DNA of 64,000 nt from Pseudobdellovibrionaceae bacterium (GTDB taxonomy: Bacteria; Bdellovibrionota; Bdellovibrionia; Bdellovibrionales; Bdellovibrionaceae): positions 186,001 to 250,000 of the forward strand of contig JAHBUW010000002.1 in assembly GCA_019637875.1 (NCBI GenBank), given 5' to 3'. The notes beneath the pieces were generated by a model that worked only from the letters and a program-made list of their open reading frames with translations, did not search any database and was not told where the DNA came from. Position numbers and translations under genes: made by a program. Shown piece by piece: positions 11,016-13,085 of this stretch (the first letter of the stretch is position 1; each line of letters starts with the position of its first letter).

Positions 11016-11766
11016 TTTCGAAGTGGGCATAAAGAAAATACTCCTGATTGCCGTCCTTGCCCGCGAGTCCCGAAGGAATCCACGCGTGCATTCGGCCGCC
11101 GAGCTCATGGACGCGATTTTCAAAACGCGCCTTCAGATCAGAAATCAATTCGGTGTTTTGCACAAGTCCCTTTTTATTCAGCGCTTCGGGACCGAGCTCG
11201 AACTGCGGCTTCACGAGAAGAAGAAGACGCGACGACCACGCGCTCAGCTGAGGCAAATGTCCCAGACTCGAAATGAAAGAAAGATCCGCGACGGTCAGAT
11301 CGAAGCGACGGCCGCGAAATTCGGAATGTTGCGCGAGATCTTTGAAGTGCAAATTCTCGTACGATGTCACTCGCCCGTCGCCCTTCACGCGCGCATCGAG
11401 CTGCTGACTGCCGACATCGATACCGGTCACCGCCTTCGCGCCCCGCTGCAGGACGCAGTCGGTGAAGCCGCCCGTGCTTTGCCCGATGTCGAGCACGTGG
11501 AAATTCGTGACGTCGAGGCCCAACTCGACGAGCGCGGACTCGAGTTTTCGTCCGCCCCGCGAAACGTAGCGTAGAACTTCGTCCGCGCGCACGTCCACTT
11601 CGGTCGTCGCGACGGGCACTTTCAGCGACGATGCCACGACCACCTGGCCGCGAAAACGCACGGCGCCTTCGTCGATCAGCTCTTGAGCCTTCGCGCGGCT
11701 GGGCGCCAGGCCCTTCTCGACGAGCCAGACGTCGATACGGATTAAATTTTTCGGATTTGGTTCCAT
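11008..11766 (-). CDS. tlyA: TlyA-family rRNA 2'-O-methyltransferase
   Basis: 252 residues. An N-terminal S4 RNA-binding domain (RIDVWLVEKGLAPSRAKAQE) is followed by a Rossmann methyltransferase (FHVLDIGQSTGGFTDCVLQ, then DLTVADLSFISS and LVKPQFELG). TlyA proteins methylate ribosomal RNA cytidines; some homologues have haemolysin-like names with no proven lytic role. I begin at the ATG at 11766, which overlaps the ispA stop by 25 bases; no better start exists before the S4 domain. Confidence 0.92.
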   Translation of the reverse strand: MEPNPKNLIRIDVWLVEKGLAPSRAKAQELIDEGAVRFRGQVVVASSLKVPVATTEVDVRADEVLRYVSRGGRKLESALVELGLDVTNFHVLDIGQSTGGFTDCVLQRGAKAVTGIDVGSQQLDARVKGDGRVTSYENLHFKDLAQHSEFRGRRFDLTVADLSFISSLGHLPQLSAWSSRLLLLVKPQFELGPEALNKKGLVQNTELISDLKARFENRVHELGGRMHAWIPSGLAGKDGNQEYFLYAHFENE

Positions 11767-12593
11767 TTGACGATCTCGACGAGCGGCCCCTGACGCACCC
11801 CCAGGCGCTCCAGCTGCGCCAAGGCCCGCGCGGTTTCCGCAGCTAGAAGTTCTTGAGTCGCGGCGACGCCGATCAAATCGGGCAAACTTCCCTTTTCCAC
11901 TTCGTGCGTGGAATCCAGGATATCGTCGGCGAGCTGAAAGCAAAGGCCCAGCGCCGCGCCGAAATCGCGCGCGGCCTCTTGCGCCGGCGCTTCGCTGCCG
12001 ATGGCGACGGTCACGCCTTCACAAATCACGCGAAAGAGCGCACCGGTCTTGCGGGCGTGCATATCGAGCAGCCCCTCGCGCGTCGGCAGCTCCTTCTGCG
12101 CTTCGAGATCCAGCGCCTGACCACCGGCCATGCCGCGGTAGCCGGCCGCTTCGCTGAGCAGTTGCACCAAGCGGATCGCTTTTCCCGGATCGGTATTGTA
12201 GCGACGGGCGATGTGGCCGAAGGCTTCGGTCAAAAGCGTGTCGCCCGCGAGCAGCGCGAACGATTCGCCAAAGACCACGTGATTCGTGGGACGACCGCGA
12301 CGTTCATCGTCGTCATCCATGCAGGGCAGGTCGTCGTGAATCAGCGAGTAGGTGTGGATCAGTTCGACCGCGAGCACCCAGGGCAGCACGCGCTGGGGGC
12401 GCACGCCGAACGCCTCGGCCAGCAGAATCCCGAGCACGGGACGCGTGCGTTTGCCTCCGGTCAGCAGCGAGTACGCCATCGACTCGGACAAACGGGTCAT
12501 CCCCGTTTGTTCGGTGCGGGCTTCGTACTCGGCCACCCATTCGCGCGCGGCGTCCTCGATAAGTTCGAGAGGTCCCGGGAACTGATCCAGCAT
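11742..12593 (-). CDS. ispA: Polyprenyl (farnesyl/geranylgeranyl) diphosphate synthase
   Basis: 283 residues. Condenses isopentenyl diphosphate onto allylic diphosphates for quinones and the undecaprenyl carrier. The first Asp-rich motif is DDLPCMDDDDERRG, with two extra residues as in short-chain bacterial enzymes; the second is QLADDILD. The GGKRTRP substrate motif is present. The ATG at 12593 has AGG eight bases before it; the 39 extra upstream codons fall inside the repeat element and are not family sequence. It is separated from xseB by that element; these genes are often close neighbours. Confidence 0.94.
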   Translation of the reverse strand: MLDQFPGPLELIEDAAREWVAEYEARTEQTGMTRLSESMAYSLLTGGKRTRPVLGILLAEAFGVRPQRVLPWVLAVELIHTYSLIHDDLPCMDDDDERRGRPTNHVVFGESFALLAGDTLLTEAFGHIARRYNTDPGKAIRLVQLLSEAAGYRGMAGGQALDLEAQKELPTREGLLDMHARKTGALFRVICEGVTVAIGSEAPAQEAARDFGAALGLCFQLADDILDSTHEVEKGSLPDLIGVAATQELLAAETARALAQLERLGVRQGPLVEIVKWNQIRKI

Positions 12594-12597
12594 GTTA

Positions 12598-12863
12598 GAG
12601 CCTAACCCAGGACCAGAGAGGGGTTGAACAGGCCGGAAAGAGCCTTGACCGAGGCGCCTCCGGCGAAGGACTGGCCCAAGCCAATTCGAGCCGGATGCAA
12701 CGAAGGACAAGGCTCTTTCCGGCCTGCCCTACGGGTCGAATGGAAAAAGTCCATCTGACAGCGTCGCTCCTCCTCGCCATAGGCGAGCTATGACTCGTCG
12801 TCGCTCCTTGCATCTGGTCTTTTTCCATTCGATTCAACCCCTCTCTGGTCCTGGGTTAGGCTC
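12598..12863. mobile_element. MITE-like element of three perfect nested inverted repeats
   Basis: Outer arms are exact inverted copies over 32 bases (12597-12628 and 12833-12864). Directly inside lie two further perfect stems: 19 bases (12629-12647 with 12708-12726) and 14 bases (12736-12749 with 12819-12832). Together they would fold as a three-way junction joined by nine unpaired bases (12727-12735). The second inner hairpin has its own tip, CTCGCC-ATA-GGCGAG. TTA occurs at 12595-12597 and 12864-12866, as a target duplication would. It fills the whole xseB-ispA gap. A short reading frame across it looks accidental. Confidence 0.75.
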
Positions 12864-13085
12864 TTACTCTTCGCTCTTGAAGTCTTGCGTGACGGGACGG
12901 CCGTCGCCGTCGAAGCCGGTCAATTGCTTCACTTTCGCTTCCGCCGCCGTCAACTGGGTTTGGCATTCACGCGACAAGCGCACGCCCTCTTCGAACAGCT
13001 TCAGCGAATCTTCCAAGGCGAGTTCGCCCTTTTCCATCTTTTGGACGATCTCTTCCAAACGTCCCAGTTTCTTTTCAAAGTCCAT
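12864..13085 (-). CDS. xseB: Exodeoxyribonuclease VII small subunit
   Basis: 73 residues, the usual size. It has the XseB pattern (FEKKLGRLEEIVQKMEKGEL then SLKLFEEGVRLSRECQ), a two-helix protein that packs on XseA. It sits 11 bases after xseA. The stop codon is the edge of the inverted-repeat element. Confidence 0.95.
   Translation of the reverse strand: MDFEKKLGRLEEIVQKMEKGELALEDSLKLFEEGVRLSRECQTQLTAAEAKVKQLTGFDGDGRPVTQDFKSEE

Follow-up and report, generated by a model that had tools for sequence, protein, structure and literature searches.

A palindromic MITE at the stop/start seam of xseB and ispA: maintained stems, a hairpin core found in many phyla and a possible translational coupler

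The xseB-ispA seam and the architecture of the element

The DNA analyzed (the window) is a 64,000-nucleotide stretch of contig JAHBUW010000002.1 of a Pseudobdellovibrionaceae bacterium. Here xseB and ispA, both encoded on the minus strand, are separated by an element that occupies the seam between the xseB stop codon and the ispA start codon (Table 1). The gap between these genes is -8 to +10 nt in 22 relatives versus about 270 nt here. Another copy of the element splits gap and pgk in the same genome, a pair spaced by -1 to +5 nt in most relatives. Empty sites in relatives, a criterion for MITEs, were found at both xseB-ispA and gap-pgk. No terminator-like or promoter-like site was found, and a terminator reading was dropped. 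The original prediction that the element splits or tunes the operon holds as regards position, which is exactly between stop and start codon; a function is only inferred.

Table 1. Features at the xseB-ispA seam (window coordinates)
Feature	Position	Strand	Remarks
xseB, exonuclease VII small subunit	12864-13085	minus	PF02609
ispA, polyprenyl synthetase; AUG 12593-12591	11742-12593	minus	PF00348; start matches relatives
Whole element (266 bp)	12598-12863	.	Read on minus strand in xseB-ispA transcript
Outer arm (terminal inverted repeat), left	12597-12628	.	Minus-strand 3′ arm; ends 3 nt before ispA start codon
Outer arm (terminal inverted repeat), right	12833-12864	.	Minus-strand 5′ arm; begins at xseB stop codon
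Hairpin A	12629-12726	.	Model R1; 19-bp stem
Mini-hairpin CCCTACGGG, at junction between hairpins A and B	12727-12735	.	
Hairpin B	12736-12832	minus	Covariance model R2; 14-15-bp stem and family core
Core 3′ side, GGAGGAGCGACGC	12761-12773	minus	
Core 5′ side, GCAAGGAGCGACGAC	12797-12811	minus	
Shine-Dalgarno-like UUAGG, within outer stem	12601-12605	minus	7 nt before ispA AUG; anti-SD -4.5 kcal/mol
TTA direct repeat, left	12595-12597	.	
TTA direct repeat, right	12864-12866	.	Doubles as xseB stop codon (TAA, minus strand)

The element folds as a three-way junction. The two outer arms pair exactly over 32 bp, hairpin A is closed by 19 exact pairs (12629-12647 with 12708-12726) and hairpin B by 14 (12736-12749 with 12819-12832). 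The predicted RNA fold energy of 12598-12863 was -180.8 kcal/mol versus -102.7 ± 5.2 kcal/mol for shuffled sequences (z -15), none of which matched it, and folding as DNA gave a z of -16 versus shuffles. Within hairpin A, the inner helices TCCGGC/GCCGGA and TGGC/GCCA accompany a conserved internal loop, GAAGGAC/ATTCGA, while the core of hairpin B, read on the minus strand, is made up of two tandem GA/GA steps and the single Watson-Crick pairs that separate them. The original prediction had described three perfect nested stems of 32, 19 and 14 bases, a clean three-way junction and TTA on both flanks; the stems and repeats are all present, and the fold bears out the junction.

Mobile origin of the copies and maintenance of their stems

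The genome holds five further full copies with 80-88% local identity to the window element. The copies lie at mutually unrelated sites, namely xseB|ispA, purB|purC, gap|pgk, carboxyl transferase|enoyl-CoA hydratase and HIT protein|rhomboid, with one further copy ahead of a mannosyltransferase-like gene. A further two copies, L012 and C4:24152-24356, are three-way but divergent, having the loops in common with the full copies, not the stems; L012 is flanked by a KdsA-like gene and a GDPD gene. A solo-end remnant, L181 (near position 1501; G000:C10:169714-169731), keeps a single 22-base end directly after a gene end and is read as what a deletion left of a further copy. Single-hairpin relatives with a GTAC-rich inner hairpin were also observed in the same genome (G000 C9:104130, C3:298643, C16:68064 and C2:23816; L029, L031, L032 and L033).

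Terminal inverted repeats ARGRGCC..GGCYCTT are common to the six full copies, meeting another criterion for MITEs. Direct TA or TAA repeats flank four of seven copies (L001, L003, L004 and L012) and are unclear in L002, L005 and L006; the three-base TTA repeat is unique to the window copy, with TA in three others. No IS630-type (DDE_3) transposase was found in this genome, nor was any second-end pairing at IS distance, and for want of the transposase the copies look stranded. A missing autonomous partner is common for old MITEs. BLASTN searches of 59 relatives returned no homologous copy; the sole match (L009) was a chance match within coding sequence.

The analysis shows that the element is a non-autonomous palindromic mobile element of the TA-target MITE type, inserted at the stop/start seam of a tightly coupled operon. 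The original prediction offered either a recent MITE-like insertion or an RNA whose structure is strongly constrained. It is supported by empty sites in relatives, by copies with different flanks, six full copies having been found at unrelated junctions, and by the compensatory changes described below. The description as recent is not: differences between copies amount to 12-20% and the genome retains no DDE_3 transposase, so that the perfection of the arms appears to be maintained rather than a sign of youth. The reading of TTA as a target duplication gains from the clear repeats at four of seven copies and is weakened by the three copies at which none is clear.

Maintenance is apparent in the stems themselves. 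Their sequences differ by 24% from copy to copy, but of 400 long-stem pairs 390 (97.5%) are Watson-Crick; free decay would break roughly 24%, versus the 10 pairs that are not. In an alignment of the six full copies, pairing is kept in 97.2% of all paired cells, and sliding the structure by one column lowers this to 44%. The compensatory changes that the original prediction had named as a check were found, with two-sided changes in at least one copy at 38 of 106 pairs versus 13.8 ± 2.7 in shuffles; in the outer helix, 17 of 31 pairs carry such a change. When copies were compared pairwise, both sides of a pair differed in 226 cases and one side in 30. At an orthologous locus in three species of one genus (g7; flanks 75-87% identical), a related hairpin carries paired changes of like kind. 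Six full copies are too few, and their non-canonical pairs (two G.T, one A.C) too evenly split, to tell RNA folding from DNA folding. As a separate observation, L038, L039, L043, L048 and L036 have a recurrent mismatch, G.A or similar, at one position some 6-9 bp from the outer stem end, retained while adjacent pairs change.

The element resembles TA-target MITEs such as Correia/NEMIS, RUP with IS630-Spn1, and ERIC in being short and non-coding, with terminal inverted repeats, TA ends, dispersed intergenic copies and long-stem transcripts (PMC2229807). It differs from them in its 266 bp, its three helices with two inverted core hairpins, and the retention of nearly all pairs through two-sided change. 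It is unusual among them in its placement at stop/start seams, in the maintenance of its arms and in an inner core common to elements of many phyla whose ends differ. An assignment to the REP elements of RAYT transposases, which carry a GTAG/CGTC tag beside a short palindrome and are linked to a Y1 transposase, is disfavoured by the size of the element, its TA flank and its inverted ends. Integron attC sites are likewise strand-specific imperfect hairpins; the GCCTAAC...GTTAGGC of the window copy is a chance likeness. Most other copies lack the RYYYAAC/GTTRRRY pair, and there is no cassette array. The attC reading was dropped; among the aligned copies, with their ATC/GAT variants, these boxes are present in the window copy only.

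The hairpin core in other bacteria

A covariance model of hairpin B (R2) found relatives in 36 of 147 related genomes. Read on one strand, what these relatives have in common is CAAGGCGC-GA-G-GA-G ... C-GA-C-GA-G-CAACGC, a core in which single Watson-Crick pairs separate two tandem GA/GA steps; the window element retains the GA steps but has the middle pair reversed. The core pattern was scanned in data with one genome per species. Among the matches listed were Acidobacteria, Gammaproteobacteria (Dokdonella, Pseudoxanthomonas, Nevskia), Janthinobacterium, Myxococcales, Omnitrophota, Planctomycetota, Verrucomicrobia and Chitinophagales. The phyla and classes with the core in TA-flanked palindromic elements include Acidobacteria, Gamma- and Betaproteobacteria, Myxococcota, Omnitrophota and Planctomycetota. 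A strict test of arm pairing was passed by 53 of the 81 sites listed and failed by 22, with six at contig edges; about nine of the listed pattern matches lie inside predicted genes, and some are chance. Just outside the pattern, CAAGGC is nearly invariant, with one looser position. Many core elements have CTAG flanks and repeated copies within one genome, and TAG stop codons stand at 25 of 43 element ends in other phyla, which is consistent with insertion at the TA of CTAG. In Acidobacteria, a two-hairpin form also carries the mini-hairpin of the window element. In Chiayiivirga sp., two 1193-bp copies of a DDE_3 insertion sequence (IS630-type; L251, L252) have nearly the same ends as the core elements there (TAGTGTGGTGTTCCGCAAATAA, with a CTAG target); they differ from these in possessing a transposase and lacking the core hairpin, and their ends are related to those of the window family, not identical.

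No Rfam family matched the element or core above gathering score, and sub-threshold matches such as mir-617 were put down to chance. Searching 5,426 complete E. coli genomes with a 55-nt core gave nothing. Plasmid collections gave no match when queried with one or two whole elements, nor did phage collections when queried with one; a single viral-contig match (L256) shows no hairpin when inspected by eye and is probably a chance one. No description came up in searches of the literature, some of them by core sequence. The survey shows that the element belongs to a family, not listed in Rfam or described in the literature searched, whose inner hairpin core is conserved across many bacterial phyla in elements with differing ends.

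Three side observations concern individual core elements. A 120-nt subfamily (L052, L057, L059, L060), found just after stop codons, has arms AAAAAGG..CCTTTTT like those of bidirectional transcription terminators. Many core elements (L085, L087, L127) occur in a MAG labelled Klebsiella pneumoniae (CAMCBY01), a label that may be wrong in view of the absence of matches in E. coli. In L093 (6487-6650), an element lies between convergent genes and has a TAG stop codon at either end; the CTAG insertion site seems to have provided both.

Stem mismatches on the strand carrying the GA core are 112 G.T to 22 A.C across phyla and 23 to 4 in the wider group of the window, an excess by which folding of that single strand seems to be kept. 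In complete genomes of genus g7, the hairpins switch strand between chromosome halves; the hairpin-B relatives oriented in this way are single-hairpin forms (G006, G033, G036, G061, G075, G077, G079, G080 and G083), with G065 mixed and a few exceptions in G067. Local GC skew identifies the core strand as the C-rich one for 50 of 56 matches in this genus (p about 1e-9 versus one half and 6e-5 versus 0.65), leading-strand gene bias being allowed for through the 0.65 comparison alone. In the same genus, the stop codon of the opposite-strand gene lies 0-9 nt ahead of the hairpin in 36 of the 56 and is TAA or TAG in 33. The replichore bias was seen in single-hairpin relatives; three-way elements hold both core orientations. 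A fixed orientation of the core to genes was tested across phyla and not found (15 sense, 12 antisense). The facts of strand and replication favour a role of folded DNA for the core, or else reflect oriented insertion as its by-product; the idea of a coupler developed below concerns the three-way element and is a separate matter.

A possible role in translational coupling

All six full copies have one orientation to the downstream gene, and the 3′ end lies 1-4 nt ahead of its start codon. In these surveys, gene starts and strands came from a simple script rather than a curated gene caller, and start codons (one of them TTG) were inferred. The 3′ ends read UUAGG, AUAGG or AUGGG and in all six match the anti-SD sequence moderately well, with energies of -4.4 to -6.9 kcal/mol versus a mean of -2.4 kcal/mol in random windows (linear). 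In silico, the probability that this SD-like stretch is unpaired was 0.00 in the free transcripts of all six copies and 0.29-0.84 when the first 12 nt of the 5′ arm were blocked; for UUAGG in the window copy it rose from 0.00 to 0.59 when a ribosome was modelled at the xseB stop. Upstream of the element there is an older ribosome-binding site, strong in three of the six (purB|purC, gap|pgk and carboxylase|ECH) and weak in the other three; a split site of the T4 type calls for an SD ahead of the structure at an effective spacing of 5-11 nt.

From the placement of the six copies, their SD-like 3′ ends and this modelled unmasking, a translational coupler is inferred. In the free transcript, the arms would be paired and the weak ribosome-binding sequence of the 3′ arm hidden. 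A ribosome terminating on the upstream gene could then open roughly the first dozen bases of the 5′ arm, which would expose the 3′ end of the element and allow the next gene to be translated, while the fold would keep the stop codon next to the start codon despite the 266 bases between them. Loss of pairing would be expected to uncouple genes such as pgk, purC and ispA, and it is proposed that copies in seams were kept for coupling, their stems remaining matched long after mobility was lost. The modelled unmasking fits RNA unfolding, an established model of translational coupling (PMC12548453). Phage T4 genes 38 and 25 provide a likeness, in that intercistronic RNA structure can bring two initiation signals to working distance; those split ribosome-binding sites span 22-27 nt (PMC3014915), whereas the window element spans 266 nt, is of mobile origin and has a strong SD upstream in only three of six copies. 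Several points weigh against a coupler: PMC12548453 reports that coupling can be lowered by structure that closely follows a stop codon; a coupler requires the outer stem alone, yet the stems of hairpins A and B likewise stay matched; L002 has no co-directional gene just upstream; in L004 the upstream stop codon falls within the 5′ arm; the start codons are inferred; and the six copies do not tell RNA folding from DNA folding.

The stems could also be matched without selection, through quasi-palindrome correction (mismatch repair or template switching by which one arm is copied from the other when the palindrome extrudes on one DNA strand during replication) in a passive MITE relic that survived where no reading frame was broken. 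Such correction accords with the dominance of two-sided changes and near absence of half-changed pairs, with their spread over all stems rather than the base alone, with their presence at a fixed orthologous locus and with equal G.T and A.C mismatches in copies of the genome itself. It is nonetheless thought unlikely, as correction alone leaves unexplained the single orientation and start-codon placement of six of six copies and the conservation of the core, and because the core strand of the wider family has a fivefold excess of G.T over A.C, which points to constraint on one folded strand. That same bias speaks for a DNA-level role, in which the core forms a one-strand ssDNA hairpin during replication or transposition, is recognised by a recombinase or host factor, and sits in operons as a by-product of the TA target in stop codons. 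Across phyla the core is conserved in mobile elements that have differing ends and are not oriented in a fixed way to genes, which agrees with this, as do the C-rich strand and stop-codon placement in genus g7 and the TAG stops at element ends in other phyla. No partner protein has been recognised, however, the linked insertion sequence (L251) has only its ends in common with the core elements, and the replichore bias was seen in single-hairpin relatives and not in the three-way elements, so that this role too is held to be doubtful.

Cleavage by RNase III, by which the long helix in the operon mRNA would be cut, the transcript separated and the downstream ribosome-binding site freed, would suit the strong fold and its 32-bp perfect outer helix, and RNase III processing has been proposed for the NEMIS/Correia elements of Neisseria (PMC2229807). 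There are no RNA data, and a processing site offers no reason for an element to end exactly at start codons; the likelihood given to it is low. A stand-alone regulatory RNA native to the xseB-ispA operon (a riboswitch, attenuator or terminator) could be argued from the very strong fold and conserved internal loops. It is regarded as highly improbable given the copies in unrelated operons, the empty site in relatives and the lack of an Rfam match or of a terminator- or promoter-like site.

The reading preferred here is that a MITE, from a family with a hairpin core found across phyla, entered the seam and that seam copies were kept as a translational coupler; with coupling inferred and no expression data, its probability is put at about 0.5. 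A wider formulation is offered only tentatively and is believed more likely wrong than right: that these are cross-phylum chromosomal palindromes defined by a one-strand G.A-step core rather than by their ends, which enter the TA of stop codons and are oriented by the replication fork in at least one genus, that the core may be a ssDNA signal, and that the doubled form in the lineage of the window serves as a coupler at the seams of essential operons.

Two questions become testable. One is what recognises a hairpin core that is conserved between groups as distant as Acidobacteria and Gammaproteobacteria, yet missing from Rfam and not found in plasmid or phage collections with the queries tried. 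The other is whether arms stay matched after mobility ends through selection on RNA or through arm-to-arm copying. If the coupler reading is true, it would show how a mobile element gets into the tightest position of an operon while leaving the operon intact, and how it is then locked in by the need for its stem to pair.
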